Shown here: positions 7,105-56,949 of the stretch, piece by piece | How positions within the stretch are numbered: the stretch's first letter is position 1 | Layout: every line of letters begins with the position of its first letter | Made by a program: the position numbers and the translations under genes | Assembly: GCF_023806465.1 (NCBI RefSeq) | Contig: NZ_JAMSLS010000006.1 | Coordinates: 62,001 to 126,000 of the forward strand | Source of the DNA: Thermomicrobium sp. CFH 73360 | GTDB taxonomy: Bacteria > Chloroflexota > Chloroflexia > Thermomicrobiales > Thermomicrobiaceae | Direction: 5' to 3' | DNA length: 64,000 nucleotides | The notes under the pieces: generated by a model | What the model saw: the letters and a program-made list of their open reading frames with translations, nothing else | What the model was told of the DNA's origin: nothing | Databases searched by the model: none

Positions 7105-8535
7105 ATGACTGCTGCACAGGAGCTCCGGTCATTGCAGCATCTCATCGACTCGGTGCCGAATATCGTGGATTACCTCTGTGGGAACCAGAAAAGCGCGCTG
7201 ACCCCCTTTCTCACCTTGCTCCAACCATCACCCCAGGTCTTGCCCGAGTTCACCAATTGGCGGGATGAGCAGCGGTCCTGGTGGGAGTCGGTTGGGCTCT
7301 CCGACCAGTCGTTCCACATGGTGAACCTTTGGGTGCGCGGGCGCGACGCGGTGCGGCTGCTGGAGTCGCTTGGCGTCAATAGTTTCAAGACGTTTGGGCC
7401 AGGGAAAGCGAAGCAGTTTGTGGCCTGTGCGCCAAGTGGGCACATTATTGGAGACGCCATCCTGTACTGTATCGAACCAGAAACCATGCTCCTTGTTGGT
7501 GCCGATATGACAATGAACTGGATTAAGTACAACGCAGTGACAGGTGGCTTTGCTGTCGCGATCGAGGAAGACCCGCTCTTTGCGTTGAATCCGTCTGGAC
7601 AACGGACAGTGTATCGCTTTGAGATCGAAGGGCCGAACGCGACACCCTTGCTCGAAACACTGATCGGTGGGCCGATCCCGGAGATCAAGTTCTTCAACTT
7701 CGTTGAGCTCCCAATTGCTGGTCGTCCGGTGTGGGTAATGCGGCACAGTATGACCGGTTCGCCGGGGTTCGAACTCTCCGGGCCGTGGGAGGACCGAGAG
7801 ACGGTCCTCGACGCCCTCTTGGAAGCTGGGAAGCGGTTCGGTCTGCGGCGACTGGGGCCACTTGCGTACTTCACGAATGCGTTGGAGTCTGGGTGGTTCG
7901 CTGCTCCCTTGCCAGCTATCTATACCGGCGAGGAGCTCCGGCCGTACCGGGAGTGGCTGCCAGCGACCTCGGCCGAAGCCACCCGGGCGCTTGGTGGGAG
8001 CTTCTATTCGCCGAACATTGAGGACTACTATGTCACCCCTTACGAACTCGGGTATGAGCGGATGATCAAGTTCGACCACGAGTTCGTGGGCCGACCAGCC
8101 CTCGAGCAACTGCGCGAGCGACCGCGACGCCGAAAGGTGACGCTGGTCTGGAATACCGATGACGTGTTGGCCCTGATGCGTGCGGCACTTTTTGACGACG
8201 GTACACCAGCAAAATACCTTGACCTGCCAGTGGCCCAATATGCAGTGTGGAAGTACGACCAAGTGCGAAACGTGCGAGGAGAAACGATCGGGATCTCGCA
8301 GTGGACCGGATATCTCGCAACCGAGCGGCGAGTCGTTTCGCTTGGCCTGGTGCAAGAGGCAGATGCTACACCAGGGACCGAGGTGGTCGTGGTATGGGGC
8401 GAAAGCGACGGTGGGGAGCGAAGCCAGCCGTGGATCGAGCGGCACCGGCCGTTCGAAGTACGAGCGACTGTGGCTCCCGTACCGCTGAGTCGCGTGGCGC
8501 AGGAGTACTGGGCGCAGGTAAAGGGGCGTCGCTAA
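7105..8535 (+). CDS. Tetrahydrofolate-dependent O-demethylase, LigM/DesA-like (GcvT fold)
   Basis: 476 residues, aminomethyltransferase (GcvT-T) fold. It closely follows the LigM/DesA aryl-O-demethylase pattern: FTNWRDEQRSWWESV near residue 50, HMVNLWVRGRDA, AKQFVACAPSGHIIGDAI, KFFNFVELPIAG, the LESGWFAAPLPAIYTGEELR stretch, and GGSFYSPNIEDYYVTPYELG near 300. LigM moves a methyl group from vanillate to tetrahydrofolate. Length (about 470) and the C-terminal WGE-GG region also agree. The exact substrate cannot be read here: it could be methoxy-aromatics or another O-methyl compound. The start at 7105 has GAGGGGGAAAG upstream. It is monocistronic, followed by a perfect hairpin, and lies next to mycofactocin-type alcohol dehydrogenases. 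Confidence 0.85.
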   Translation: MTAAQELRSLQHLIDSVPNIVDYLCGNQKSALTPFLTLLQPSPQVLPEFTNWRDEQRSWWESVGLSDQSFHMVNLWVRGRDAVRLLESLGVNSFKTFGPGKAKQFVACAPSGHIIGDAILYCIEPETMLLVGADMTMNWIKYNAVTGGFAVAIEEDPLFALNPSGQRTVYRFEIEGPNATPLLETLIGGPIPEIKFFNFVELPIAGRPVWVMRHSMTGSPGFELSGPWEDRETVLDALLEAGKRFGLRRLGPLAYFTNALESGWFAAPLPAIYTGEELRPYREWLPATSAEATRALGGSFYSPNIEDYYVTPYELGYERMIKFDHEFVGRPALEQLRERPRRRKVTLVWNTDDVLALMRAALFDDGTPAKYLDLPVAQYAVWKYDQVRNVRGETIGISQWTGYLATERRVVSLGLVQEADATPGTEVVVVWGESDGGERSQPWIERHRPFEVRATVAPVPLSRVAQEYWAQVKGRR

Positions 8536-9003: not shown

Positions 9004-10122
9004 TTAGTGATCGAAGAGCAGTACGCCGCGGATAACGCGTCCTTCGACGACGTCACGATATCCCTCGTTGATCTGCTCGAGCGTATAGGTCTTCGTGACG
9101 AGTTCGTCGAGCTTAAGTTTGCCCATCCGATAAAGTTCGAGGAAGCGCGGGATATCGACCTTTGGATTGGAATGTCCGTAGATGGTTCCTACGATCTCCT
9201 TGGCGAGGAGCATGAACTCACGAGGGGTCACATCGATGTGGTCCATACCGCGGCCGGAGGCGCCAACGATAACGGTGCGACCGGCCTTGCGCGTGACTTG
9301 AGTTGCGAGCCCGACGTGCTCCGGCTTCACGTGGTCGAGGGTGAGCAGCACCTTGTCGCAACCGACACCGTTGGTGATCTCCATGATCCGCTGATAGATA
9401 TCCTCGCGCGTGGCATCAATGGTGTGTGTGGCGCCGAATTCCTTGGCCTTTTCCAGCTTCCACGCGACGCGGTCAACAGCAATCACCCGAACTGCGCCGG
9501 CAAGGACTGCACCCTGCACCGCGTTCATGCCCACGCCACCGACCCCGATCACAGCGACCGTATCACCGGGGCGGACGCCACCGCGGAACATCGCCGCACC
9601 GGCTCCGGTCGGGACAGCGCAGGCGACAAGGCAGGCCTTGTCGAGCGGGATATCGGGGTCGATCTTGACGACGGCGTCGGTCGGCGCGACTGTCCACTCG
9701 CTGAAACAACCGATCATCGCGAACTGGCCGACATCCTGACCGTCCTTGGTGTGGAGACGGAAGGTGCCGTCAAGTTGCGCCCCAAGCGTCACGTTCGCGC
9801 CGCGATCGCAGAGGACGGGGATCCCGCTCAAGCACCACCGGCACTTGCCGCAAGGTGGGATGAAGGTCAAGATGACATGGTCCCCCGGCTGAAAGTCGGT
9901 CACACCGGGGCCGACCTTCTCGACGACACCGGCTCCTTCATGGCCAGCAACGATCGGGTATCGACCCGGGCTGTCACCGGTTGCAAAGTACCAGTCGGAG
10001 TGGCAGAGACCGGTTGCGACGAGCTTGATCAGGAGTTCGCCTTGCTTGGGCTCGTCGAGTTCGAGTTCCTCAATCTCGAAGTGTTGTGTCGGCCCCCAGA
10101 GAACGGCTGCGCGGGTCTTCAC
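9004..10122 (-). CDS. NDMA-dependent (mycofactocin-associated) alcohol dehydrogenase, paralogue 1
   Basis: 372-residue zinc alcohol dehydrogenase of the class that holds its nicotinamide cofactor tightly and passes electrons to NDMA in vitro and, as established for the family, to mycofactocin in vivo. Visible features are the catalytic zinc ligands in GLCHSDW and GHEGAG, structural zinc cysteines in CGKCRWCLSGIPVLC, and the Rossmann GVGGVGMNAVQGA. The start is GTG 10122, giving VKTRAAVL, the same N-terminus as the two paralogues in this window; AAGGGG precedes it. The more distal ATG adds 7 residues. It flanks mftD and lies a few kilobases from mftA, supporting mycofactocin dependence. It is clearly diverged from paralogues 2 and 3. 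Confidence 0.9.
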   Translation of the reverse strand: MKTRAAVLWGPTQHFEIEELELDEPKQGELLIKLVATGLCHSDWYFATGDSPGRYPIVAGHEGAGVVEKVGPGVTDFQPGDHVILTFIPPCGKCRWCLSGIPVLCDRGANVTLGAQLDGTFRLHTKDGQDVGQFAMIGCFSEWTVAPTDAVVKIDPDIPLDKACLVACAVPTGAGAAMFRGGVRPGDTVAVIGVGGVGMNAVQGAVLAGAVRVIAVDRVAWKLEKAKEFGATHTIDATREDIYQRIMEITNGVGCDKVLLTLDHVKPEHVGLATQVTRKAGRTVIVGASGRGMDHIDVTPREFMLLAKEIVGTIYGHSNPKVDIPRFLELYRMGKLKLDELVTKTYTLEQINEGYRDVVEGRVIRGVLLFDH

Positions 10123-10200
10123 CGAGGTCCCCTTTCTGCCCACACGAGCGCGGCTGGTTCGGCGCAGCAGGTGAGCACGATCGCGTTCTGCACTAGGCGT

Positions 10201-10230
10201 ACGGTAACATCAGTTCTGAAGTGTCGTCAA
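10201..10230 (-). promoter_or_regulatory. Candidate promoter for alcohol dehydrogenase 1
   Basis: On the minus strand TTGACG (10230-10225) and TACCGT (10206-10201) are 18 nt apart, placing a start near 10195 and a leader of about 70 nt. The -35 is near consensus, the -10 weaker than those of the sister genes. Confidence 0.45.
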
Positions 10231-10712
10231 TGGAAGTGTTCATAATAACAGAACAGTGGAGGATTTTTCTGCATGATTTCCACTGCAGCGGCGCGATGTG
10301 CGCTGGCCCCGCGGAGGGTGTGCACCGGCGTGGACGAATCATCCCGGTTTGGGGCTGAAGATGGGGCGGAGCGCTCGGTTGGTTGTTCGCGCGCGTTGGT
10401 CTGGTTCTTGGCTCTGCGCTTGCATCCTGTTGAGGTCGGGGGACACAACGGAGAACCTCTGCCAGACTCTCTTCTGCGGAGACAGCCTCGGCTTCTTTCC
10501 CTTCGAGGTCGTCATCGTGGGGGAAGGAGCTGACGAGTCGGTGCTGGTATGACCGGGCCGACAAGGTGCTGCAGTGTTTCTGTCCATCGCAGAATCATTG
10601 CAACAGGGTGGGGGCTCCGGATCACGGTTCTTCGGACGAGTTTGGAGCCTGAAGCAGTGCCCTGTTAGAGGAGAGGGATGAGAAAGCGGGTGCTTGTGTG
10701 GAGAAGGGGGGT
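10231..10712. other. Intergenic region between dehydrogenase 1 and mftD
   Basis: About 480 bp with no convincing coding frame, RNA gene or repeat; open frames here lack family signals and SD sites. The mftD terminator hairpin follows at its right edge. Confidence 0.5.
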
Positions 10713-10744
10713 GAGCCCCGGCCCTACGTGGGGGACCGGGGCTC
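10713..10744 (-). terminator. Hairpin terminator after mftD
   Basis: GAGCCCCGG (10713-10721) pairs perfectly with CCGGGGCTC (10736-10744), directly downstream of the mftD stop at 10746. No U-tail is present. Confidence 0.7.
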
Positions 10745-10745
10745 A

Positions 10746-11975
10746 TTAGACCGGCAGCGGGTGAGCGCTCGGCTCCCGGCAGCGCCAATGGGCGACGGAA
10801 CGTGCTGGGCCGGCGATGAAGCCGGGTGGGATCACAAGGTCGCTTGGGCAGAGTTCATGGATGGAAGACTTGCCGATGCCGAGAAGGGTCTCGTCGATAC
10901 CACTGCGGAGCAGTTCCAGCACGTTGCGGACACCGGCTTCTCCGTTGGCGGCGAGCCCCCAAAGATAGGCGCGACCGATCAAGACAGCACGAGCACCCAG
11001 AGCAAGCGCTTTGACGACATCGCTCCCGCGGCGGATGCCGCCATCCAGGAGAATCTCGAGGCGGTCGCCAACAGCCTCGACGATCGTGGGAAGGACGCGA
11101 ATCGAGGCCGGTGCACCGTCGAGGTTGTTCCCACCGTGGTTAGACACGGAAATGGCGTCTGCGCCGATCTCAGCCGCGCGCCGAGCGTCGTCTGGATGCA
11201 GGATACCTTTCAGGATGAAAGGACCGTCCCACTGCTCGCGCAGCCAAGCGATGTCGGACCAGGTTGGGGATGGTGTTTGCATCCATTCGAAATACGCCTC
11301 GAAGAAAGTAGGCGGTCGCTGCCCCGGAAGCGCGAGGTTCGGCACGGTGAGATCGGGTAACCTCCTGCGCTTGAGATACTCCCACAGCCAACCGGGACGG
11401 GACAGGGCTTCGGGAGCGAGCTTGAGCATATTACGGAGCGTGAGGCGGTCGGGAATGAAGGGGCTACCCCAATCGCGGCGAGTGGCAAAGGACCAATCGA
11501 GCGTGACAACAATCCCCTTGGCACCGGCAGCCTTGGCGCGTTCCAGGATGGCGCGGATGCGCTCGCGTGTCCCAAGCCAATAGATCTGGAAGAAGGTATG
11601 CGGATTGGCAGCGACGACCTCTTCCAGCGGCTTACTGGCAAACGAACTCAGGATCATGATTGTACCGGCTGCGGCTGCGGCACGAGCGACAGCGACCTCG
11701 GCATCCGGGTGAATCGCCTGCACACCGGTCGGCGAGATGAGCACCGGGAGGGAAATCTCGAAACTGAGGACCGTCGTCGCAAGATGACGCTGTGTGGGTG
11801 CGGCGGCAACACGCGGGATGAAGCCGAGTTCGGCGAAGGCCGCAACATTGTCGCTCAGGGTGACACCGCGCTCACTCCCCGCGAGGATGGCTGCGTAGAC
11901 TGACGGGGGAAGTCGCTTCTTCGCACGACGTTGAGCCTCAGCAACCGACTCAAACCATTCACGAGTGCTCGCCAT
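10746..11975 (-). CDS. mftD: Mycofactocin biosynthesis FMN-dependent deaminase/synthase MftD
   Basis: 409-residue flavoprotein of the lactate oxidase/glycolate oxidase fold. MftD converts the MftE-released AHDP intermediate to premycofactocin by oxidative deamination. Visible motifs are PVLISPTGVQAIHPDAE, ILSSFASKPLEEV, the Lys strand FILKGILHPDDA, the catalytic His in SVSNHGGNNLDGAPAS, and the phosphate-binding DGGIRRGSDVVKALALGARAVLIGR. Members of this fold also include generic alpha-hydroxy-acid oxidases; location beside mftABCF and NDMA dehydrogenases favours MftD. The start is ATG 11975 behind GGAGGA; an upstream extension in the same frame is not protein-like. It is on the opposite strand from mftA, with a dehydrogenase between. 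Confidence 0.88.
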   Translation of the reverse strand: MASTREWFESVAEAQRRAKKRLPPSVYAAILAGSERGVTLSDNVAAFAELGFIPRVAAAPTQRHLATTVLSFEISLPVLISPTGVQAIHPDAEVAVARAAAAAGTIMILSSFASKPLEEVVAANPHTFFQIYWLGTRERIRAILERAKAAGAKGIVVTLDWSFATRRDWGSPFIPDRLTLRNMLKLAPEALSRPGWLWEYLKRRRLPDLTVPNLALPGQRPPTFFEAYFEWMQTPSPTWSDIAWLREQWDGPFILKGILHPDDARRAAEIGADAISVSNHGGNNLDGAPASIRVLPTIVEAVGDRLEILLDGGIRRGSDVVKALALGARAVLIGRAYLWGLAANGEAGVRNVLELLRSGIDETLLGIGKSSIHELCPSDLVIPPGFIAGPARSVAHWRCREPSAHPLPV

Positions 11976-12413
11976 TGCTCCTCCTGCATCGACAAAATGC
12001 TTCGTCATCCCGACGCAGCAGCGACACCGGCTACCCCGGCAGCTGAATGCGGTAGCACACGGGCACCGCGCGAAAAAGTTGCCATATGGTTCTCCATGGC
12101 GCGCGACAGCCTTGAGGGTGACCATCGAAAGACAGCAAGACTGCGGCGCAGATGCAGCCCAAACCGTGGCGTGATTGTTTCGTGAGGACGTCCGTGTGGT
12201 GCGTGGCGAGCGTACCAGGAGGTACCGGACTGGGGTCAAGCAAGAGGGGTGCCGTGAGCTCGTTCGCCGCATAACCATGGTGACCACGCTGGCTGGTGCC
12301 GACATCCGGGAGTGGGTGGGTCGGACTACCTTGGCAGATGGATCGCCCCCGACCTCTGGGCGATGCACGACCGACGGAGTAGTCAGTCGAGCTGGCTCCT
12401 GCCCGACAACAGG
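11976..12413. other. Intergenic region between mftD and dehydrogenase 2
   Basis: About 440 bp, presumably holding the mftD promoter. I found no well-spaced -35/-10 pair comparable with those of the neighbours and no credible gene. Confidence 0.5.
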
Positions 12414-12445
12414 GAGCTCCACTGGGGAGTCTCCCAGTGGAGCTC
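12414..12445 (-). terminator. Long perfect hairpin after dehydrogenase 2
   Basis: A perfect 13-bp stem (12414-12426 with 12433-12445) with a 6-nt loop lies 40 bp beyond the stop at 12485. It is likely the terminator of alcohol dehydrogenase 2 and insulates mftD. Confidence 0.75.
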
Positions 12446-12484
12446 GGTAGGAGGATTAGGAATGAACCAACTACGAGATGTTGC

Positions 12485-13600
12485 TTAGTCGAAGAGGATG
12501 ACACCGCGGATGACCCGTCCTTCCAGGAGGTCGGCGTAGCCCTGGTTGATTTCCTCGAGGCGATAGGTCTTGGTGACGAGTTCATCGAGCTTGAGGCGGC
12601 CGGCGCGGTAGAGCTGGAGGAGGTAGGGGAAGTCGACGCGGGGATTGACGTGGCCGTAGAGGGTTCCGACCACCTCCTTCCCAAGGAGCACCAAGTCAGC
12701 CGGCGGAACCTTCATGGAGTCGGTCGCGATTGGCGCCAGACCGACCACGACACAGCGACCGGCTTTGCGGGTGGCGCGGTAGGCGAGGCCGATGTGCTCG
12801 GGTTCGACGTGGCCGATGGTGACGATGGTCTTATCGGCGCCGACGCCGTTGGTGAGGTCGAGGATGCGCTGGACGGGGTCCTCGTACTGGGCGTTGATGG
12901 TGTGGGTGGCGCCGAATTCCTGGGCGGCTTCGAGCTTCCAGGGGACGAGGTCGACGGCGATGACCTTGGAGGCGCCGGCGAGGGCGGCGCCCTGGACGGC
13001 GTTCATGCCCACGCCGCCGAGGCCAAATACGGCAACCACTTCACCGGCCCGGACCTCACCGCGCTTGGCGGCGGCACCGACACCCGTGGGCACGCAACAA
13101 GAGACCAAACAGGCGCGGTCGAGTGGAATATCGGAGTCAATCTTCACGATCGCGTCGGCCGGGGCGACTGTGTACTCGCTGAAGCAGCCGATCATGGCGA
13201 ACTGGCCGACTTCTTGGCCGTCCTTCGTGCGGAGGCGGAAGGTGCCGTCGAGCTGAGCACCGATGGTTGCACCGGCGCCTCGGTCGCAGAGGACCGGGAG
13301 ACCGGTGAGGCACCAGCGGCACTTGCCACAGGGCGGGATAAAGGTGAGGAGCACATGGTCGCCAGGCTGCACTTCAGTGACACCGGGGCCGACCTTCTCA
13401 ACGATGCCGGCGCCCTCGTGGCCGGGGACAATGGGGTAGCGGGCAGGGTGATCGCCGGTCGCGAAGTGCCAGTCAGAGTGACAGATGCCGGTCGCAACCA
13501 TTTTGACGAGGACTTCTCCAGCCTTGGGTTCATCCAGTTCCAATTCTTCAACACTAAACGTCTTGGTGGGACCATGCAGCACAGCTGCCCGCGTCTTCAT
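12485..13600 (-). CDS. NDMA-dependent (mycofactocin-associated) alcohol dehydrogenase, paralogue 2
   Basis: 371-residue zinc-dependent NDMA-type alcohol dehydrogenase. Zinc ligands are in GICHSDWHF, GHEGAG and CGKCRWCLTGLPVLC; the nucleotide fold is in GLGGVGMNAVQGA. The start is ATG 13600 (MKTRAAVLHGPT) 4 nt after AAGGGGGAG. It has its own strong promoter and is divergent from mftA, only about 280 bp away, which strongly links it to mycofactocin. Two internal DNA blocks (12485-12691 and 12765-13045) are identical or differ by one base from paralogue 3, whereas the rest of the gene is clearly diverged; this is a mosaic typical of gene conversion. Confidence 0.93.
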   Translation of the reverse strand: MKTRAAVLHGPTKTFSVEELELDEPKAGEVLVKMVATGICHSDWHFATGDHPARYPIVPGHEGAGIVEKVGPGVTEVQPGDHVLLTFIPPCGKCRWCLTGLPVLCDRGAGATIGAQLDGTFRLRTKDGQEVGQFAMIGCFSEYTVAPADAIVKIDSDIPLDRACLVSCCVPTGVGAAAKRGEVRAGEVVAVFGLGGVGMNAVQGAALAGASKVIAVDLVPWKLEAAQEFGATHTINAQYEDPVQRILDLTNGVGADKTIVTIGHVEPEHIGLAYRATRKAGRCVVVGLAPIATDSMKVPPADLVLLGKEVVGTLYGHVNPRVDFPYLLQLYRAGRLKLDELVTKTYRLEEINQGYADLLEGRVIRGVILFD

Positions 13601-13681
13601 AGGCTCCCCCTTTCGCAACATCTCCGACTGACCAGAATCCTCTCATTGATTGTTGAGTGAGAGAGAACTAGTTTTGTTCAA

Positions 13682-13710
13682 AGTATAGCAGATAATCGAA
13701 TGGCTGTCAA
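13682..13710 (-). promoter_or_regulatory. Consensus promoter of dehydrogenase 2
   Basis: On the minus strand a perfect TTGACA (13710-13705) and TATACT (13687-13682) are 17 nt apart. The predicted start near 13675 gives a leader of about 75 nt before ATG 13600. Confidence 0.85.
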
Positions 13711-13788
13711 CCCTTCCGTGCACGGGCGAGAAGGGGATTCACCGACATAGGTTCCGGGTAAATAGAGACTTTCCTCGGAAGACGAGCG

Positions 13789-13817
13789 TTGACACCTTCG
13801 AGACGCCTGGATATACT
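13789..13817 (+). promoter_or_regulatory. Consensus promoter of the mftABCF operon
   Basis: TTGACA (13789-13794) and TATACT (13812-13817) are separated by 17 nt. The expected start near 13824 leaves a leader of about 55 nt before mftA. It faces away from the dehydrogenase 2 promoter, so the two could share regulation across about 80 bp. Confidence 0.88.
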
Positions 13818-13878
13818 CCGGCTGACATTCCGAACATGTTGGGTGGTTAGGGAAATGCGCGGAGAAGGGAGCGGAAAG

Positions 13879-14037
13879 ATGGAGCCGATGGTGGAGGTGC
13901 TGGTGGAGGAGCCGAAGACGGTGGTTGAGGAGCAGTCGGCTGCGACGCTCTCGGCCGAGACAGAGGAGTCAGCCGAGCAGCTGGTGGAGATGCTGCTCGC
14001 GGAGATCACGATCGACGGCATGTGCGGGGTGTACTGA
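13879..14037 (+). CDS. mftA: Mycofactocin precursor peptide MftA
   Basis: 52-residue acidic peptide whose last residues are [11 protein letters not shown], the conserved MftA core. In the known pathway MftC oxidatively decarboxylates the terminal Tyr and cross-links it to the preceding Val; the resulting dipeptide-derived unit becomes the redox cofactor. The Glu-rich leader ([14 protein letters not shown], then [14 protein letters not shown]) is the recognition part bound by MftB. I start at ATG 13879, 7 nt after GGGAG; ATG 13855 is a second option and would add 8 residues. The stop overlaps the likely mftB start, fitting coupled translation. Confidence 0.95.
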
Positions 14038-14312
14038 TCGAGTCGGTGCGCTGGGAGAACCGCACGAGGCTTGCCCGGACCGCGGCGCTCCGGCCGGAGC
14101 CGTTTGGGGCGCTGGCCTATACCTACCATGAGCGCCGATTATTCTTTATCCCGCCCTGGCTTGTTCCCTTTGTCGAGGGTACTGGGAATGAGACAATCGC
14201 CGAGGTGGCGCAGCGCCTGCGGGCAGCGGGCATCCTGCCAGAGGACGCGGGAGAAAAGATCCTGCCGCTCCTGGAGGGGCTGCGTCGCAGGGGGGTCATC
14301 GATGTGGACTGA
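14022..14312 (+). CDS. mftB: Mycofactocin peptide chaperone MftB
   Basis: Small PqqD-like RiPP recognition protein that binds the MftA leader and presents it to Mft[32 protein letters not shown] is the characteristic N-terminal beta region of MftB; the C-terminal half is helical and ends GVIDVD. The start is uncertain: GTG 14022 overlaps mftA by 16 nt without a clear SD, and GTG 14046 would give 88 residues. Position between mftA and mftC is diagnostic. Confidence 0.9.
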
Positions 14313-15399
14313 CGTGCTGCGTCGTGGGTTGAATGCGCCGATCTGCTTGACCTGGGAAATTACCTACGCCTGCAACTTCAACTGCGTGCACTGTTTGTCC
14401 TCGTCTGGCAAGCGCGCGCCCGATGAATTGACGACGGAGGAGGCCAAGCGGCTGATCGATGAGTGGGCCGCATTGCGGGTCTTCTACATCAACGTTGGGG
14501 GTGGAGAGCCGCTTGTTCGTCCTGACTTCTTCGAGCTGATGGAGTATGCAATCGCGCGCGGGATCGGCGTGAAGTTCAGTACCAATGGGAGCCTGATTGA
14601 CGAGTCTGTCGCAGACTGGATCGTGCGGACACCATATCTCGACGTCCAGATCAGTCTCGATGGGGTGACTCCAGAGGTGAATGATGCGATCCGAGGCGCA
14701 GGATCGTATGCGTTGGCACGGCGAGCGATGGAGCTCCTGGCAGCACGCCGGTTCCCCTTTAAGATCAATGTTGTGTTGACGCGACGGAACTTCGAGCAAC
14801 TCGAGGACTTCTACGCGCTCGCCAAGTCGTATGGAGCACAACTCCGGGTAACACGCCTACGACCATCGGGGCGCGGGCGCGAGGTGTGGCATGAACTCCG
14901 CTTGACCCGAGCCCAGAGTCGCCAACTGTACAGTTGGCTCGTCAATCATCCCGATGTGTTGACAGGAGACTCGTTCTTCCATCTCTCGGCGCTGGGGCGG
15001 CCGCTGGAGGGGCTGAATCTCTGCGGAGCCGGTCGGATCGTCTGTTGTGTCGATCCACGCGGTGACGTCTATGCCTGCCCCTTCGTCCTGACTGAGGAGT
15101 TCAAGGCAGGGAATGTCCGTGAGCGCTCGTTTACCGAGATCTGGCGTGATTCGCCGCTCTTCCAGCGATTACGTGAGTGGGAGGCTGGCTCAACCTGCCA
15201 AGCGTGCTCCGCGTATTCCCGCTGCCAGAGCGGGTGCTTCGCGGTGAAGTACTTCACCGGAACGCCGCTGGATGCACCAGATCCCGAGTGTGTCTTTGCG
15301 CCCGAGACTGGACCGACCGATATCGTTCTGCCGCTGCGTTTGCACCCGCGTCCGGTTCGGAGCCCACGACGGGTCGCAGTCACGCCGGCAGCGCAGTGA
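14302..15399 (+). CDS. mftC: Mycofactocin radical SAM maturase MftC
   Basis: 365-residue radical SAM/SPASM enzyme acting on the C-terminal Val-Tyr of MftA. The AdoMet cluster motif is CNFNCVHC (Cys 24, 28, 31), followed by the SAM-binding VGGGEPL and FSTNGSLID. The C-terminal SPASM region has cysteines in [22 protein letters not shown] and [14 protein letters not shown] for auxiliary clusters. The start is ATG 14302, which overlaps the mftB stop by 11 nt, with an upstream AGGGGGG. Length and motif order fit MftC. The last 30 residues are Pro/Arg-rich and probably disordered. Confidence 0.94.
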
Positions 15400-15469
15400 C
15401 CTCCGCAGTCGTCCAAGGTGAGGAGCGGAACGCTCACGGTCCTTCCACCTTGGTCGGCTCAGGTGAGCG

Positions 15470-17059
15470 GTGAGGGGCACGAAGTCATCCGTGAGAGTCC
15501 GCAGCCAAGATGACGGAGAAGCTCCACAGTGGCATCCTGACGGTGCGGTGACGATCACAGCCCGTTGTTACATCGATCCTTCTGCGCGCTGTCTCGCCCA
15601 AGGCGAGACGGTGTGGATTGTGGCCGACCGACCACTCCGCGCATGGCGAGTGCATCCCAAGGTTGGCCGCCTGCTCGAAGCACTCCGGATGAATCCGGAC
15701 GTGGAGCATGCGTTGCGGACTGTTCCAGGACTGCGACGCGAGCTGGCGCTGGAGCTCCTGGAGCGGTTCGCCGATGAGGGACTTGTGCGCTTGGAGTGGA
15801 GCGTTTCGGAGGATGTGTTGCCACCAGTAACCGTCGTGATTCCCGTGCGCAACCGGCCGCGGCAGCTCCAGGCATGTCTGGCCGCGCTGGAGCGGCTGGA
15901 TTATCCGCATGATCGGCTGGAGGTTCTCGTCGTCGATGACGCTTCGACGGACGAAACACCAGAGCGCGCTGCGGCATGGTGCGGGCGGCTCCCCCTGCGC
16001 GTGATCCGTATGCCAGTCCGCGTGGGAGCGGCTGAGTGTCGCAACCAAGGGGCTGCAGCGGCACAAGGGGAGATCGTCGCCTTCACCGATAGCGACTGTC
16101 TACCGCATCCGTACTGGTTGCAAGCACTCGTTGTGGAGTTTGTCCGCCCGAGCGTAGCAGCGGTGGGAGGTGCCGTTCTGCCGGCGGATGAGCAGAGCTG
16201 GCTTGATCGGTACGAAGCGGTGCAATCGCCGTTGACACATGGGCCAGTACCGGCCCGGGTGCGGCCGCGCGGTGCAGTGCCGTATCTGGCAACAGCGAAC
16301 GTGCTGATGCGGCGACGAGTCCTCCTCGAGTTAGGTGGCTTCGCACGTATCCATCCTGGTGAGGATGTGGATCTCATTTGGCGGCTCTGCGAGCAGGGCT
16401 GGCGGGTGCTGTACCGTCCGAATGGGGTAGTCTACCACGACCACCGTGACCGTCTTTGGCCGTTCTTGCGTCGTCGAGTGGCCTACGCGACGTCGGAAGT
16501 TGTGCTTGTCGAGCGACATCCTGCCTACCGGCATGTGCTCACCCTCCCTCTTGCCCTGCTGATGAGCGTCGGTTGGGCTTTGGCGAGCTGGCGTCGTGGA
16601 CGATGGCTCCCGGTGTTCGCGCTGCTGCCAATACTGGCGGAGCTGGTGAGTGCGATGAGAAGCGTACGGCACGCGGGAGCACCAATTGGTACTGGGCGTC
16701 TCTTACAAGGGGAACTCCGGGGAACGGCAGCAGCAGTCTATTGGGTGGGAAGAACAGTAAGTCGATACTACAGCTGGGCAGCACTGATCACCGGAGCGCT
16801 CACGCGGCGCAGGGGCGTGGGCCAGTGGCTGCTTGCCCTGGTGGTGATGAGTCTGACTGGAACAGCAGTGGTCGACTATGTCCGCAAGCGACCGCGTCTT
16901 GATCTGGTCCGCTTCGTTCTCGCGCACATACTTGACGATCTTGCGAACAACGCAGGGCTTCTGGCTGGCTGCCTACGCTACCGAACAGTGCGTCCCATGC
17001 TTGTCGCACTTTCGTTCTACCGGCCACGTGGGGCGCCACGTCGGGAGCGGAGCCGCTAG
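15470..17059 (+). CDS. mftF: Mycofactocin glycosyltransferase MftF
   Basis: 529-residue family-2 glycosyltransferase, which in characterised systems adds beta-1,4-glucose units to premycofactocin. Residues about 25-115 form the PqqD-like N-terminal region seen in MftF (VWIVADRPLRAWRVHPKVGRLLE). The GT2 domain follows: VTVVIPVRNRP near 120, VVDDASTDETP, FTDSDCLP with the metal-binding DxD, and GEDVDLIWRLCEQGW. Hydrophobic segments near 360-400 and 450 suggest membrane association. GTG 15470 is chosen; a GTG a few codons on is also possible. A 70-bp gap separates it from mftC, but it is on the same strand with no terminator between. The usual mftE is not found next to it. Confidence 0.9.
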   Translation: MRGTKSSVRVRSQDDGEAPQWHPDGAVTITARCYIDPSARCLAQGETVWIVADRPLRAWRVHPKVGRLLEALRMNPDVEHALRTVPGLRRELALELLERFADEGLVRLEWSVSEDVLPPVTVVIPVRNRPRQLQACLAALERLDYPHDRLEVLVVDDASTDETPERAAAWCGRLPLRVIRMPVRVGAAECRNQGAAAAQGEIVAFTDSDCLPHPYWLQALVVEFVRPSVAAVGGAVLPADEQSWLDRYEAVQSPLTHGPVPARVRPRGAVPYLATANVLMRRRVLLELGGFARIHPGEDVDLIWRLCEQGWRVLYRPNGVVYHDHRDRLWPFLRRRVAYATSEVVLVERHPAYRHVLTLPLALLMSVGWALASWRRGRWLPVFALLPILAELVSAMRSVRHAGAPIGTGRLLQGELRGTAAAVYWVGRTVSRYYSWAALITGALTRRRGVGQWLLALVVMSLTGTAVVDYVRKRPRLDLVRFVLAHILDDLANNAGLLAGCLRYRTVRPMLVALSFYRPRGAPRRERSR

Positions 17060-17287
17060 GTCGCGGGTACCGAGTTCACGGACCGTCGGCGCAGGTGCGT
17101 CCTGGCCAACACGCAAAGCTTGTGTGGAACCGACTTCGTCATGCGACTTCGAGCATCCCGTGGTTCTGCTCGGTCAGGACTGGGGGCGGCAGATTACTCT
17201 GTGCGCTCCCTATTGTGCCGTGGCGTCGCGCCAGCCTGCGAGACCGCGGGGGAGGTGCAACGCCACTGCCCATCACCGGAGTGTCGG

Positions 17288-18403
17288 TTAGTCGAAGAGG
17301 ATGACACCGCGGATGACCCGTCCTTCCAGGAGGTCGGCGTAGCCCTGGTTGATTTCCTCGAGGCGATAGGTCTTGGTGACGAGTTCATCGAGCTTGAGGC
17401 GGCCGGCGCGGTAGAGCTGGAGGAGGTAGGGGAAGTCGACGCGGGGATTGACGTGGCCGTAGAGGGTTCCGACCACCTCCTTCCCAAGGAGCACGAGATC
17501 TGCTGGTGGGACTTTCATCCACTCGGTGTTTTGCGGAGTAAGCCCCACCACAACTGTGCGCCCCGACTTGCGGGTGGCGCGGTAGGCGAGGCCGATGTGC
17601 TCGGGTTCGACGTGGCCGATGGTGACGATGGTCTTATCGGCGCCGACGCCGTTGGTGAGGTCGAGGATGCGCTGGACGGGGTCCTCGTACTGGGCATTGA
17701 TGGTGTGGGTGGCGCCGAATTCCTGGGCGGCTTCGAGCTTCCAGGGGACGAGGTCGACGGCGATGACCTTGGAGGCGCCGGCGAGGGCGGCGCCCTGGAC
17801 GGCGTTCATGCCCACGCCGCCGAGGCCAAATACGGCAACCACTTCACCAGGACGCACTTCGGCACGCTTTGTGGCGGCACCAAATCCTGTCGGCACACAA
17901 CAGGCAACAAGACATGCCTTGTCCAGGGGGATATCCGGCTCGACGCGGATGAGTGTCTCCACAGGAGCTACAATATACTCGCTAAAGCACCCAATGCCAG
18001 CAAGCTGTCCGACGTCCCGTCCATCCACAGTATGCAAGCGAAAAGTCCCGTCGAGCAGTGCACCGCCGGTGATGTTCGCACCACGATCACAGAGGACAGG
18101 GAGACCGGTGAGGCACCACCGGCACTTGCCGCATGAGGGAATAAATGTCAAGATGACATGGTCACCAGGCTGCACTTCAGTGACACCGGGGCCGACCTTC
18201 TCAACGATGCCGGCGCCCTCGTGACCTGTCACAATGGGATAGTTGGTTGTGAAGTCGCCGGTGGCGAAGTGCCAATCGGAGTGGCACATGCCGGTTGCCA
18301 CCATCTTGACCAGGACCTCTCCGGCTTTCGGCTCGTCAAGTTCGAGTTCTTCCACCTGGAACTGCCGAGTGGGCCCATACAAGACAGCAGCACGGGTCTT
18401 CAT
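17288..18403 (-). CDS. NDMA-dependent (mycofactocin-associated) alcohol dehydrogenase, paralogue 3
   Basis: 371 residues, same architecture as paralogue 2: MKTRAAVLYGPT start, zinc ligands in GMCHSDWHF, GHEGAG and CGKCRWCLTGLPVLC, Rossmann GLGGVGMNAVQGA. The start is ATG 18403 behind AAGGGGGA. It converges on mftF and has its own consensus promoter. The C-terminal coding DNA is shared almost base for base with paralogue 2 (17288-17494 and 17568-17848, constant offset 4803). Between the blocks and in the N-terminal half it differs, for example in the substrate region and in GALLDGTFRLHTVDG. Different regulation or substrate from paralogue 2 is likely. Confidence 0.92.
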   Translation of the reverse strand: MKTRAAVLYGPTRQFQVEELELDEPKAGEVLVKMVATGMCHSDWHFATGDFTTNYPIVTGHEGAGIVEKVGPGVTEVQPGDHVILTFIPSCGKCRWCLTGLPVLCDRGANITGGALLDGTFRLHTVDGRDVGQLAGIGCFSEYIVAPVETLIRVEPDIPLDKACLVACCVPTGFGAATKRAEVRPGEVVAVFGLGGVGMNAVQGAALAGASKVIAVDLVPWKLEAAQEFGATHTINAQYEDPVQRILDLTNGVGADKTIVTIGHVEPEHIGLAYRATRKSGRTVVVGLTPQNTEWMKVPPADLVLLGKEVVGTLYGHVNPRVDFPYLLQLYRAGRLKLDELVTKTYRLEEINQGYADLLEGRVIRGVILFD

Positions 18404-19024: not shown

Positions 19025-19055
19025 TTGCGCCCGGGCACTTCCGCAACGCTATAGT
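19025..19055 (+). promoter_or_regulatory. Candidate promoter of the CDGSH-Rieske gene
   Basis: TTGCGC (19025-19030) and TATAGT (19050-19055) with a 19-nt spacer. The -10 is good; the long spacer and weak -35 make this tentative. Leader about 40 nt. Confidence 0.4.
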
Positions 19056-19102
19056 TGCTATCAGGCTGGCGGATGACGTTGCAGAGGACCGGAGGAGGGA
19101 CG

Positions 19103-19702
19103 GTGAGCGAGGTTCGGATCACGGTTCGGCAGAATGGCCCGTACTACGTCCAAGGCCGAGTTATTCTGGTTGACCACGAGGGAAACGAGATTCCCTATGA
19201 AGGTGAAGAACTCTGGCTGTGTCGCTGTGGTGGCTCATCCAAGAAGCCGTTCTGTGACGGGACGCATAAGCGGATCGGCTTTCGTGGTGACCTTGGGGTG
19301 GAGGTGCGTCGGCGCAAAAGTGAAGTGTCAGGCGAAGGCACGGCGGCGAGCATGGCGACGACCCAGGGGGAGCGTCAGGAGAACACAGATTTCGTCGCCG
19401 TCATGCCTCTGGCCGAGGTGCCGGAGGCTACGATCGTCCGCTTTGAAGTTGACGGTGAGCCCCGCATTCTCGTGCGCTATGGCGACCGGCTGTACGCCGT
19501 GTATGGAATCTGTACCCACGAGGAAGCGGAACTGGCCGAGGGTGATCTCGAGGACGGGATTGTGTATTGCCCATTGCATGGGTCAGGGTTCGAGCTCGCT
19601 ACCGGACGTGTCGTCTCACTCCCAGCGACAGAACCGCTGCCGGTGTACGAGGTGCAAGTCCGCGACGGCATGGTGTACGTGTCGCGGCGGCCACGGGGAT
19701 GA
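19103..19702 (+). CDS. CDGSH iron-sulfur domain fused to a Rieske [2Fe-2S] domain
   Basis: 199-residue two-domain electron carrier. Residues about 1-70 are a mitoNEET-type CDGSH domain: LWLCRCGGSSKKPFCDGTHKRIGF supplies the three Cys and one His of a [2Fe-2S] cluster. After a short linker, residues about 95-199 are a Rieske ferredoxin with CTHEEAEL (Cys-x-His) and VYCPLHGSGFE (Cys-x2-His). The start is GTG 19103 immediately behind GGAGGAGGGA. Two cluster types in one small soluble protein suggest intramolecular electron transfer. A BphA4-type ferredoxin reductase lies about 2.2 kb downstream on the same strand and is a plausible partner, though the membrane-protein gene lies between them. Confidence 0.9.
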   Translation: MSEVRITVRQNGPYYVQGRVILVDHEGNEIPYEGEELWLCRCGGSSKKPFCDGTHKRIGFRGDLGVEVRRRKSEVSGEGTAASMATTQGERQENTDFVAVMPLAEVPEATIVRFEVDGEPRILVRYGDRLYAVYGICTHEEAELAEGDLEDGIVYCPLHGSGFELATGRVVSLPATEPLPVYEVQVRDGMVYVSRRPRG

Positions 19703-21918: not shown

Positions 21919-23133
21919 ATGCCTGAGACGTGCTTGGTCATCGGTGCCGGAGTTGCAGCGTTCGGCTTTGCCAATGCGATTCGTGATGCTGGATACCAGG
22001 GACGATTGATTATCGTCGGGGCAGAAGAGTCCCCCCCGTATGAGCGTCCTCCGCTGTCAAAGGCGTATCTCCTTGGGAAGAAGCACGAGGATGATCTGAT
22101 CTATCGACCACTCTCGTTCTACGAGGAACGCGGGATCACGCTTGTGCTCGGTGAACGGATTGCCTCTCTCGACCTTCAGGCGCGCTCAGCGCAGGCGGAG
22201 AGTGGAAAGACCTACCATTTCGATCAGCTGGTGCTGGCAACGGGAGCAAATCCTATCCGGTTACCGATACCAGGAGCTGAACTCCCTGGCGTGCGCGTCC
22301 TCCGGTCAATGGCTGACGCGCGAGCGTTACGCGACGACCTCCACCGCGTTGAGCGGGTATTCGTGATTGGGGGTGGGTTCATTGGCTGTGAGGTCGCAGC
22401 AAGCGCCCGGACGTTGGGGAAACAGGTGACGCTGGTCGAGACGATGCCAGTGCTGCTTGGACGAGCGTTGGGTGAGCAGATCGGGAGTGCAATCGCCCGT
22501 GTGCACGAGCGCCGCAGTGTTGTCCTGCGCTTGGGCCGGCGGGTCGAAGCGCTGGAAGGGCGGGCGCGGGTGGAACGTGCCATTCTGGACGACGGAACGG
22601 TGCTCCCGTGTGATCTTGTGGTGGTTGGAATTGGAGTTCGGCCAGCCCTGCCGGCTATCGACGGCGACCTCGAGATCGACAACGGCGTGGTGGTTGATGC
22701 GACCTGTGCCGCGAGCGCTCCAGGTGTCTGGGCGGCGGGAGACGTGGCACGTTGGTGGCATCCAACGATCCAGCGAGCCATTCGAGTGGAACACTACGAC
22801 AACGCACTGGCAATGGGAGCGGCCGTTGCCAAGGCGGTGGCAGGACAGCCAGAGCCATACGCTCCAGTGCCATCGTTCTGGTCGGATCAATACGACCTGA
22901 CCATTCAATATTACGGTTATCCTGTGGAATGGGATGAGATCATCGTCCGAGGCGATCTCGACGAGCCGGCCTTCACGGCTTTCTACTTGGCCAGTGGTCG
23001 GATTTTTGGTGCAGTAATCGTGGGGCGGCCCAAAGATATGCGGCCGGCCCGCCGACTCGTTGAGCGGTTGGCGCAGGTCGACCGAGCAGTGCTGAGTGAT
23101 CCAGAGGTCGACCTGCGCACGCTCCTTTCTTGA
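21919..23133 (+). CDS. Rieske-type ferredoxin reductase (NAD(P)H:FAD oxidoreductase)
   Basis: 404-residue FAD/NAD(P)H disulfide-reductase-fold protein of the BphA4/RhoR ferredoxin reductase type. The FAD-binding GAGVAAFGFANAIRDAGY is at the N-terminus, the PPYERPPLSKAYLLG stretch follows, and ATGANP, the NAD-binding FVIGGGFIGCEVAASA, and the second FAD motif VWAAGDVARW come later. C-terminal residues 310-404 form the interface domain (FWSDQYDLTIQYYG) typical of the ferredoxin reductases. It transfers electrons from NAD(P)H to a Rieske or ferredoxin partner; the CDGSH-Rieske protein is the obvious local candidate. No redox-active Cys pair is present, which rules out disulfide reductases. Confidence 0.9.
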   Translation: MPETCLVIGAGVAAFGFANAIRDAGYQGRLIIVGAEESPPYERPPLSKAYLLGKKHEDDLIYRPLSFYEERGITLVLGERIASLDLQARSAQAESGKTYHFDQLVLATGANPIRLPIPGAELPGVRVLRSMADARALRDDLHRVERVFVIGGGFIGCEVAASARTLGKQVTLVETMPVLLGRALGEQIGSAIARVHERRSVVLRLGRRVEALEGRARVERAILDDGTVLPCDLVVVGIGVRPALPAIDGDLEIDNGVVVDATCAASAPGVWAAGDVARWWHPTIQRAIRVEHYDNALAMGAAVAKAVAGQPEPYAPVPSFWSDQYDLTIQYYGYPVEWDEIIVRGDLDEPAFTAFYLASGRIFGAVIVGRPKDMRPARRLVERLAQVDRAVLSDPEVDLRTLLS

Positions 23134-26788: not shown

Positions 26789-27961
26789 TTAGGCTTTCAC
26801 GCGCCGCTTCTCCGGATCGACAAAGGGAATCGGGACAACCCGGGCGGCACGCCAGCCCTCAGCCGTCAGTACCTCAAGCTCGCTCCCCAATTGTGCGTGT
26901 GACGAGGGAACGCGCGCGAACCCAATAACCTGGCCGACCCGGGGAGACCAGCAGGCTGATGTGACGTGACCAAGCGGCTCGTCTCCGCCCGGCTGGTGGA
27001 CAGGGAGCGGCTCAAGCAGCAGACCGTCCCGCAGGTCGTTTGGTGGATCGCCGTCGAGGATGAAACCGACCACCTTGCACGAAGGTCCTTCGCTGGCGAT
27101 CTGTATCAGTGCCTCGCGTCCGACGAACCGCGGCTTCCGGAGATTGACCATCCACTCGTAGCCGGTCAGTTCATAGGGATTCGTTTCCAGCGTCATATCA
27201 ATGCCGTAGGAGAAAATGCCGGCCTCAATGCGGCGGATGTGGCTCGGCGCTGCGACACGGAGACCGAAGGGTTTTCCCACAGTCACAACGTGCTCCCAGA
27301 ACCGTGGCCCGGAGCGGCTTCCATCGAGCGGCATCAACTCGTAGCCGAGTTCACCGGAGAAGCCGGTTCGTGTGACCACAACCTCGAACTCGCCAATTCT
27401 CGCGCGGGCGACGTGATAATAAGGAAGCTCCGCGAGGGATGGGCCGCCAAGAGCTGCGATGACCTCGCGGGCGCGTGGCCCACGGATCTGCAGCGGGGCG
27501 GTGTCCACTGGCCGAATGGTGACATCGAGTTGTGTCGCTGCCGCGAGGGCGCGAAGCCAGAGCAGGAGGTCGCTGTCTGAGGGCATGAGCCAGAACATGT
27601 CCTCAGCGAGACGAACAACGACCGGATCGTTGACGATGCCCCCATGCTGGTCGGTGACGAAGACATAGCGGCATTCACCGACCGAACACCGGGTCAGATC
27701 GCGGGTCGTTGCCCAATCGAGGAGTGCGAACGCGTCGGGCCCACTGACCTCGAGCGGGATTTCGGTGCCGATATCCCAGAGGACGACGCCGTGGACGAGT
27801 GCCCAGTACTCGTCGAGCGGATCAGTATAGAGGGCCGGCAAGAGGCGACGATGGAAGACTGCATAGGCGCGGGGCTGGAAGCGGGAGGATGCAGGAAAGT
27901 AGAGCGAGGTCCCCGTGCGGAGGGAGCGGAGAACGGGACGTGTTGGGAGAGGATCATCCAT
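26789..27961 (-). CDS. GcvT/DmdA-like folate-dependent methyltransferase or demethylase
   Basis: 390 residues, GcvT-T fold. The pattern is closer to DMSP demethylase DmdA than to glycine-cleavage T protein: VLWDIGTEIPLEVSGPDA, TTRDLTRCSVGECRYVFVTDQHGGIVNDPVVVRLAED, SDSDLLLWLRALA, then FGLRVAAPSHIRRIEAGIFSYGIDMT and NPYE. Such enzymes move a methyl or methylene group to tetrahydrofolate. The substrate cannot be assigned from sequence; dimethylglycine/sarcosine-type substrates are alternatives. The start is ATG 27961, 7 nt after AGAGGAG. It is divergent from an MHS transporter and may share its regulatory region. Confidence 0.8.
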   Translation of the reverse strand: MDDPLPTRPVLRSLRTGTSLYFPASSRFQPRAYAVFHRRLLPALYTDPLDEYWALVHGVVLWDIGTEIPLEVSGPDAFALLDWATTRDLTRCSVGECRYVFVTDQHGGIVNDPVVVRLAEDMFWLMPSDSDLLLWLRALAAATQLDVTIRPVDTAPLQIRGPRAREVIAALGGPSLAELPYYHVARARIGEFEVVVTRTGFSGELGYELMPLDGSRSGPRFWEHVVTVGKPFGLRVAAPSHIRRIEAGIFSYGIDMTLETNPYELTGYEWMVNLRKPRFVGREALIQIASEGPSCKVVGFILDGDPPNDLRDGLLLEPLPVHQPGGDEPLGHVTSACWSPRVGQVIGFARVPSSHAQLGSELEVLTAEGWRAARVVPIPFVDPEKRRVKA

Positions 27962-28524
27962 CAGCCAGCTCCTCTGGGTACCAACGAAGCCACGGTGAGA
28001 ACAGAGCATAACAATTGTGGCAGAGGATCCGGTCGGTCGCAGGTCGCTGACCGCACGACCAGACGTGAGGAAGGTGTGGTTGAGCGAGCAGGGGGTTCAT
28101 CTTGGGTTCGTCACGTGGTAGACCTTGACGGCTAAGGCGACATGTGGTACCGATATGCGTCGCCAGAAGCGGTTGGCGGTCTTGTGCATGGTTGATGCCG
28201 ACAGTGATGCGTGAAGGCCGACGAGTGAATCGCCACCAGCCCTATCCGGTTGCCCCGTGCCCGACAATGAACGGTGTCTTTGCGCTTTGGCCGCGGATCT
28301 GTGAGTGTTCCCGCTGAACAACTGAGTCCCCGCTTGACAGCGGCTGAACTTGCGTTCCATGTGAGGTAGGTCGCATGGCGGGGAAGCCATGATCAATGTC
28401 GGAGAGCAACACACATTGTCCAGACAGCGTTCGATCTGTAGGGTGATCGAAAGATCCGCCCAACAGGTGGCTGACAGAGGACACTGGAGGGAATCGCGTA
28501 TTTTCTGCCGAAGGGGAAAGGGAG
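27962..28524. other. Divergent regulatory region, no gene seen
   Basis: About 560 bp between the GcvT-like gene and the transporter. It contains TTGACA at about 28333 and TTGTCC/TAGGGT near 28416-28445 on the plus strand, none convincing as a full promoter. No riboswitch-like fold was recognised by eye. Confidence 0.4.
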
Positions 28525-29874
28525 ATGGCAACAGCGATTGAGCGAAACCGAGGATACCTGGCGTTCGTGATCGGTGCCTCGACGGTTGGTTCGGCGATCG
28601 AGTGGTACGACTTTTATATCTTTGGAAGTTTGGCGGCCATCCTGGCGACACATTTCTTCGCCAAGGACCATCCAGTCGCAGCGCTCCTGAATACAATCGC
28701 GATCTTCACAATCGGGTTCCTCTTCCGTCCGCTTGGGGCGATTGTGTTCGGCTGGTATGGGGACAAGATCGGACGAAAGCGGGTGTTCATCCTCACGTTG
28801 CTCGGGATGGGACTAGGCACGGCACTGATCGGCGTGATACCGAGCTATGCGACCATCGGGGTGCTGGCACCGATTCTGGTCTTCCTCCTGCGGGTGATCC
28901 AGGGGCTCAGCGTCGGCGGTGAGTGGGGCGGCGCGCTGACCTACGTGGCGGAGCATGCGCCGGATGGCAAGCGCGGTCTCTATACAGGGCTCTTAAGCCC
29001 GGCGGCGATCTACGGACTGCTCATGTCGTTCCTCGTGGTCCTGAGCGTGCGGACGGCCCTTGGTGAGGAGACGTTCCGGGCCTGGGGGTGGCGGATCCCC
29101 TTCCTGTTGTCACTCGTGCTGGTGCTGATCTCCCTCTATGTGCGGCTGCGTTTGCAGGAAACCCCGATGTTTGCAGAACTCAAGGCCCGTCGGGCAGTAG
29201 TGAAGAACCCGCTCAAAGTGACCTTTACCGGTGAGAACTTGCGGCGGGTGTTCATCGCCGCAGCAGTGTCCTTTGGACAGGCAGTTGCCTGGTACACGGC
29301 GATCTTTTGGGCGCTCTTCTTCCTGCAGACGGCACAGAAGCTTGACTTGATTACCACCTACAAAATTCTGCTCCCCGGATTGATCCTCGCGCCGGTGCTG
29401 CACGTCTTCATGGGTTGGCTGTCCGATTCAATCGGCCGCAAGCCGATCGTGCTGACCGGCTTTGCCCTGGCAATCGTGGGGTTCTACCCACTCTATACTC
29501 TGCTCGGGCGGTTTGCTCAGAAGGACAACGTGCAGTACTGGCCGGCGGCTCTCACGGTGATTGTGATGATGCTGATTCCCGCGATGGTCTGGGGACCGCT
29601 TCCGGCGCTGCTTGCGGAATACTTCCCGACGCGGGTACGCTACACCTCGCTTGGTGTGGTGCAGAACGCGGCGAACGGGTGGGGCGGCGGCCTGGTGCCG
29701 TACGTGACGACCTGGATTCAGACCGCGACAGGGAACTTGATGTGGGCACTCGTTTACCCGATCGCCTTGCCACTGCTCGGGTTGATCATTGGACTGCTCT
29801 TCTTGCCCGAGACGGCACGCCACCGGCTGTGGGAGCAGCCAGGACCGGCGATGGCAGCCGGGGACGGAGAATAA
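28525..29874 (+). CDS. MHS-family (ProP-like) metabolite:H+ symporter
   Basis: 449-residue major-facilitator transporter with 12 predicted helices. MHS hallmarks are IEWYDFYIFGSLAAILATHFF in helix 1, FLFRPLGAIVFGWYGDKIGRKRVF (loop 2-3 signature), RVIQGLSVGGEWGGAL in helix 4 and the second signature GWLSDSIGRKPIVL. The family carries organic acids, betaine/proline/ectoine-type solutes and related compounds with protons. The start ATG 28525 follows GGGGAAAGGGAG. It is first in a run with an acyl-CoA ligase, O-acetylhomoserine sulfhydrylase and crotonase, so it likely imports the acid or betaine that this cluster uses. A terminator hairpin separates it from the ligase. Confidence 0.88.
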   Translation: MATAIERNRGYLAFVIGASTVGSAIEWYDFYIFGSLAAILATHFFAKDHPVAALLNTIAIFTIGFLFRPLGAIVFGWYGDKIGRKRVFILTLLGMGLGTALIGVIPSYATIGVLAPILVFLLRVIQGLSVGGEWGGALTYVAEHAPDGKRGLYTGLLSPAAIYGLLMSFLVVLSVRTALGEETFRAWGWRIPFLLSLVLVLISLYVRLRLQETPMFAELKARRAVVKNPLKVTFTGENLRRVFIAAAVSFGQAVAWYTAIFWALFFLQTAQKLDLITTYKILLPGLILAPVLHVFMGWLSDSIGRKPIVLTGFALAIVGFYPLYTLLGRFAQKDNVQYWPAALTVIVMMLIPAMVWGPLPALLAEYFPTRVRYTSLGVVQNAANGWGGGLVPYVTTWIQTATGNLMWALVYPIALPLLGLIIGLLFLPETARHRLWEQPGPAMAAGDGE

Positions 29875-29898
29875 GTCAGGATACTCGCGCGGTATCAT

Positions 29899-29929
29899 CC
29901 GGTGAGGAGCGTAGACAGCTCCTCACCGG
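29899..29929 (+). terminator. Hairpin after the MHS transporter
   Basis: CCGGTGAGGAGC (29899-29910) pairs perfectly with GCTCCTCACCGG (29918-29929), 7-nt loop, followed by a pyrimidine-rich stretch. It separates the transporter from the ligase operon, or attenuates read-through. Confidence 0.75.
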
Positions 29930-29967
29930 TGTTGCCTCTTCAGTCCCAGCTAGAAAGGGGGAAAGGC

Positions 29968-31650: not shown

Positions 31651-33555
<1,905 letters not shown>

Positions 33556-33596
33556 GCGCGGCTGATCGGTCGCGTGACAGCGGAAGGAGGCGACCA

Positions 33597-34391: not shown

Positions 34392-34452
34392 AAAGCGTGC
34401 CATCGTGCCAAGGCGTCAAGGCACGTTGAATGCCCGTAAGATGCGCCACTGC

Positions 34453-56594: not shown

Positions 56595-56949
56595 TGGTGA
56601 TCCCTTCTCCTGCATCGCCGGGTGGCACCGGACGCTCAGTACTCTCAATGTGTTATTCGGCAGAAGAGGACTCGCCGTCAAGTGAAAACCATGGCGATGC
56701 TGTGATGGCGCACCCTGAATGCGACAAAGGGCGGGCCAGTTGCGGGTTTGCCTCTCAGGCGCCGCTCGACACTGCGGGGACAATGCGCTATGGTCAGCGT
56801 ATCTCGCGGCGGTGAAGAAGGCGAGCTCCACAAGGAGGTGTTTTGTAGGGGGGCTCGGAAGGTCCAGAGGAGACTCGAGTCGTACCCTGTCGAGCCAGAG
56901 GCTTTCTCCCGACTATTGTCGCTAGCGCATGCGGGAAGGAGTGTCAACC

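Follow-up and report, generated by a model that had tools for sequence, protein, structure and literature searches.

A mycofactocin locus with three zinc alcohol dehydrogenases and no MftE orthologue in Thermomicrobium

We analyzed a 64,000-nucleotide stretch of DNA (hereafter the window; contig C35:62001-126000) from a 3.06 Mb draft Thermomicrobium genome with a completeness of 99.67%. Positions 9004-18403 of the window hold a mycofactocin (mft) locus of eight genes (Table 1). ADH_A, MftD, and ADH_B lie on the minus strand at one side, MftA, MftB, MftC, and MftF on the plus strand in the middle, and ADH_C on the minus strand beyond them. Gene families were called by NCBIfam scores against curated cut-offs, with Pfam models added for MftA and for the domains of MftC. 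All eight proteins exceed the cut-off of their respective NCBIfam model. An earlier note on this DNA had described these same genes, including the IDGMCGVY ending of MftA, the CNFNCVHC motif of MftC, and three interleaved zinc alcohol dehydrogenases, and both the assignments and the layout hold at the positions it gave. Gene identities, family assignments, order, and conservation can be read directly from the sequence.

Table 1. Genes of the mycofactocin locus, with window positions and bit scores against curated cut-offs.
Gene	Position	Strand	Evidence and remarks
ADH_A, NDMA-dependent zinc alcohol dehydrogenase	9004..10143	-	TIGR03989 546 bits, cut-off 440; found in HR28 and G122
MftD, pre-mycofactocin synthase (FMN)	10746..11972	-	TIGR03966 709 bits, cut-off 471
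ADH_B, NDMA-dependent zinc alcohol dehydrogenase	12485..13621	-	TIGR03989 575 bits, cut-off 440
MftA precursor peptide	13855..14037	+	TIGR03969 29.7 bits, cut-off 25; PF23709 36.6, cut-off 27
MftB, precursor-binding chaperone (start uncertain)	14022..14312	+	TIGR03967 48.7 bits, cut-off 33
MftC, radical SAM/SPASM maturase (CNFNCVHC)	14302..15399	+	TIGR03962 639 bits, cut-off 265
MftF glycosyltransferase	15470..17059	+	TIGR03965 532 bits, cut-off 280
ADH_C, NDMA-dependent zinc alcohol dehydrogenase	17288..18403	-	TIGR03989 563 bits, cut-off 440; not found here in G122

The precursor peptide MftA terminates in IDGMCGVY, which includes the invariant CGVY of mycofactocin precursors, and it exceeds the cut-off of both models used. 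The core is kept in Thermomicrobium, Sphaerobacter, and other phyla, and is unchanged in every mft relative with a detected CGVY terminus except one. A Syntrophomonadaceae genome encodes, close to an MftC relative, an MftA-like peptide with an altered core (EITVDCICGVY; L025 9872-10006). The start of MftA is either the ATG at 13855 or that at 13876. The start of MftD was set by the profile match, which begins at residue 153 of a longer open reading frame. MftC carries both the Radical_SAM and SPASM domains, and its ATG at 14302 overlaps the 3' end of MftB.

Contigs C2 and C13 of the draft are 100% identical sub-copies of C35, and the draft genome is therefore partly redundant. An extra MftC match arises from these redundant contigs, so we reject a second mft copy in this genome. 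Four dehydrogenases exceed the TIGR03989 cut-off, comprising the three at the locus and one on contig C34. No short-chain dehydrogenase (SDR) scores above its cut-off in this genome.

MftC is most similar to that of bacterium HR28 (97% identity) and Thermomicrobium sp. SKW109 (86%), followed by a Sphaerobacter metagenome-assembled genome (79%). The host proposed in the earlier note, a thermophilic member of the Chloroflexota, agrees with these nearest relatives, with thermophily taken from the genus. The locus is kept in HR28 (genome G119) and, in altered form, in two further genomes of the genus (G122 and SKW109, G123). These similarities place the organism in Thermomicrobium or very near it. 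In G122, ADH_C is missing at the corresponding place. The SKW109 contig begins inside ADH_B, and ADH_A and MftD therefore fall off that contig. MftA, MftB, MftC, and MftF are intact and conserved in at least three other Thermomicrobium genomes, and MftD in two of these.

The non-actinobacterial setting, which the earlier note had singled out as useful, is already on record. The founding description of mycofactocin lists Thermomicrobium roseum and Sphaerobacter thermophilus as organisms outside the actinobacteria that have the system, and it depicts the T. roseum cluster together with zinc dehydrogenases; its tally for T. roseum is five zinc dehydrogenases of TIGR03989 and zero SDRs (Haft 2011, PMC3023750). 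Thus, the locus described here is a further member of a published case: the host is of the same genus or nearly so, with the MftA, MftC, and MftF set and zinc dehydrogenases of TIGR03989 within the cluster or close to it. The part of that account available to us does not discuss the missing MftE in this lineage or the gene conversion described below. The mycobacterial cluster with MftG (PMC11778925) likewise combines MftA, B, C, D, and F with nicotinoprotein dehydrogenases, whereas the Thermomicrobium locus lacks an MftE orthologue and MftG, and its cluster dehydrogenases are of the zinc type only. Sphaerobacter-type loci (G114 and G113) share MftB, C, F, and D, the same MftA core, and a TIGR03989 dehydrogenase, but they have one such enzyme rather than two or three, and other flanks. 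Loci from another family in the same class (L118 2179-19867 and similar) have MftA, B, and C with the same core motif. In contrast to the compact Thermomicrobium arrangement, these are spread out and carry an MftE above cut-off, a mycofactocin-coupled SDR, two OYE-type flavoenzymes, and ETF alpha, FixC-like, and MftM-like genes.

Several other genes of the window were also characterized. A GcvT-fold protein (7105-8535) has the syringate and vanillate O-demethylases as its nearest families, at 527 bits (cut-off 800) and 489 bits (cut-off 580), respectively, and its gene adjoins the mft locus in HR28 and G122 too. Further along, a gene group at 26789-34391 encodes a GcvT-like demethylase whose best model is the DMSP demethylase (253 bits against a cut-off of 410), together with an MFS transporter, an acyl-CoA ligase, an O-acetylhomoserine sulfhydrylase/CoA-binding fusion, and an enoyl-CoA hydratase. 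This group resembles a set of the DMSP-demethylation type and is a candidate only. A minus-strand tRNA-Arg (ccg) at 34328-34409 overlaps the end of the enoyl-CoA hydratase open reading frame (33597-34391). Near the end of the window, a 1687-residue open reading frame (58246-63309) contains a DEAD-box domain and a helicase C-terminal domain and matches no NCBIfam model at the threshold applied.

Mft-positive genomes, of Thermomicrobium and of the Sphaerobacter type alike, contain dehydrogenases that exceed the TIGR03989 cut-off. Within the family, three genomes without an over-cut-off MftC still have such an enzyme (G120, G121, and G112); G120 and G121 are only 62% and 54% complete, and the G112 dehydrogenase adjoins MftD on a 3.2 kb contig. 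The 99%-complete genome G124, which is without MftC, has no dehydrogenase above the TIGR03989 cut-off. This co-occurrence supports the proposal, made in the earlier note, that these dehydrogenases need mycofactocin, although it falls short of proof. A further zinc dehydrogenase in the window (56929-58050) scores 254 bits with the class III model and 250 bits with TIGR03989, below both cut-offs.

We find that two of the three dehydrogenases at the locus are uneven in their similarity. ADH_B and ADH_C differ at 162 of 591 bases over codons 1-197, at 1 of 249 over codons 198-280, and at 0 of 201 over codons 313-379. ADH_B is thus nearly identical to ADH_C over approximately 12485-13045, with the exception of one patch at codons about 286-310 that contains 31 differing sites. 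No donor for the divergent ADH_C patch was found among the other dehydrogenases compared. The homogenised tract runs from codon 192 to the stop codon. Its boundary lies just before GLGGVG (residues 200-205), where alignment to human class I alcohol dehydrogenase places the start of the nucleotide-binding fold. HR28 has the same boundary, and base 576 is the site of the last N-terminal difference in each of the two genomes. In SKW109, in which ADH_B is truncated, there is only one difference beyond the boundary region, as far as the gene is assembled.

Comparison of this genome with HR28 separates the two halves of the genes. With the patch left out, the C-terminal part has 18 sites with a pattern shared by the paralogues of one species and 0 with a pattern shared by orthologues, while the N-terminal part has 2 and 141, respectively (Fisher's exact test, P about 6e-22). 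Because of these opposed site patterns, gene conversion after the species split best explains the homogenised second halves of ADH_B and ADH_C. An assembly error could also generate near-identity, and the draft contigs do break within sequence common to the two genes (window 13395, 17311, and 18198). We consider this source very improbable, because the shared tract is present in three separately assembled genomes, each with its own substitutions common to both copies. In addition, the two genes in the window still differ at the 31 sites of the patch. Under gene conversion, divergent N-terminal catalytic halves joined to a shared coenzyme-binding and C-terminal half would fit enzymes that have one cofactor partner and different substrates, a selective reason that we infer.

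The step at which mycofactocin is released from its precursor has no evident counterpart to MftE here. The MftE model has one match in the genome, a creatininase-family protein just outside the window (C35:60704-61420), 10 kb upstream of ADH_A, whose score of 133 bits is below the cut-off of 172. The Pfam creatininase model finds this single protein as well, and one each in G119, G122, G123, and the mft-negative G124, the 99%-complete sister genome without MftC. We built a tree of 22 creatininase sequences, including over-cut-off MftE proteins of another family of the class. The Thermomicrobium protein groups with proteins from mft-negative genomes, outside the MftE clade (support 100/99). This placement and its occurrence in mft-negative genomes lead us to reject it as an orthologous MftE. 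Thus, by the MftE and Pfam creatininase models and the tree, there is no MftE orthologue in this 99.7%-complete genome, and either the single creatininase or another peptidase would carry out the release.

The first of these options, in which the creatininase now performs the MftE step and so completes the pathway as a non-orthologous member of that fold family, is a serious possibility that falls somewhat below even odds. The protein is the sole creatininase-family member of the genome, retains the EQHG, GHGGN, and HACE-type positions conserved across the aligned creatininases, and shares a contig with the mft locus, as it also does in mft-positive G119 and G122. Against this, it scores below the MftE cut-off, falls outside the MftE clade, and is also kept where mft is lacking, both within the genus and in sister genera. 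The families of MftD, MftE, and the TetR regulator are not present in all mft species (Haft 2011, PMC3023750). Since MftE is not universal, the locus remains within the mycofactocin family despite its absence.

The re-oxidation of the cofactor also has no recognisable gene. With TIGR03970 as the MftG model, this genome gave no match at E ≤ 0.001, and no protein exceeded the cut-off in the 21 genomes searched. The mycofactocin OYE2 and ETF alpha models have no over-cut-off match in Thermomicrobium or Sphaerobacter. MftG is present in 75% of mft organisms (PMC11778925), which places the Thermomicrobium lineage among the remaining quarter.

The window does encode a CDGSH-Rieske fusion protein (19055-19702) and a dioxygenase-type ferredoxin reductase (21919-23133), and such a pair might serve as an electron exit for reduced mycofactocin. 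Their closest homologues (79% identity or more) are found only in the four mft-positive Thermomicrobium genomes, and in G122 mftF, the Rieske gene, and the reductase gene are consecutive on the same strand. But the two genes also sit next to each other in relatives that lack mft, G115 among them, and the pair is therefore not specific to mycofactocin. The Rieske homologue of Sphaerobacter is far from the mft locus, and the best families of the two proteins, below cut-off, are the ferredoxin and reductase components of ring dioxygenases. We therefore reject this role as highly unlikely.

With neither an MftE orthologue nor MftG, the pathway as known from mycobacteria is incomplete here. The earlier description of the locus as a useful compact non-actinobacterial version of the system is thus right as to the core genes, which are real, but two of the steps have no recognisable gene. 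The joint absence of MftE and MftG could reflect a decaying pathway in which mycofactocin is no longer made and the dehydrogenases work otherwise. We regard decay as a very slim prospect, given the conservation of intact MftA, B, C, F, and D within the genus, the association of the dehydrogenases with the mft locus, and the incomplete distribution of MftE and MftG among mft genomes at large (PMC3023750; PMC11778925).

We conclude that the locus probably encodes a working mycofactocin pathway of the established type (probability roughly 0.85), by analogy with chemistry established in actinobacteria. MftB would bind MftA, and MftC would decarboxylate and cyclise its C-terminal Val-Tyr, as in actinobacterial work. 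After its release, the cyclised dipeptide would be oxidised by MftD and then glycosylated by MftF. The resulting mycofactocin would re-oxidise the NADH held inside the three zinc nicotinoprotein alcohol dehydrogenases encoded alongside, and several alcohols may be oxidised through this carrier. The papers we found report no mycofactocin biochemistry from Thermomicrobium, and both the substrates and the dependence on the carrier at this locus are inferred. The observation made in the earlier note is therefore real and correctly identified, and its interpretation is broadly right, for a locus of a kind already known. The absence of an MftE orthologue, the absence of a recognisable oxidase, and the concerted evolution of ADH_B and ADH_C go beyond it.

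These features could be parts of one arrangement, in which core release and cofactor re-oxidation in Thermomicrobium fall to a peptidase and an oxidase different from the known ones, and the carrier-docking halves of the dehydrogenases are held identical by gene conversion while their substrate halves diverge. We offer this combined proposal tentatively and think it rather unlikely as a whole. Conversion is confined to the coenzyme-binding and C-terminal region, which hints at a possible binding site for a shared partner there. Thermomicrobium is thus a place to ask how the mycofactocin core is freed when MftE is absent, and how the cofactor is re-oxidised when there is no MftG.
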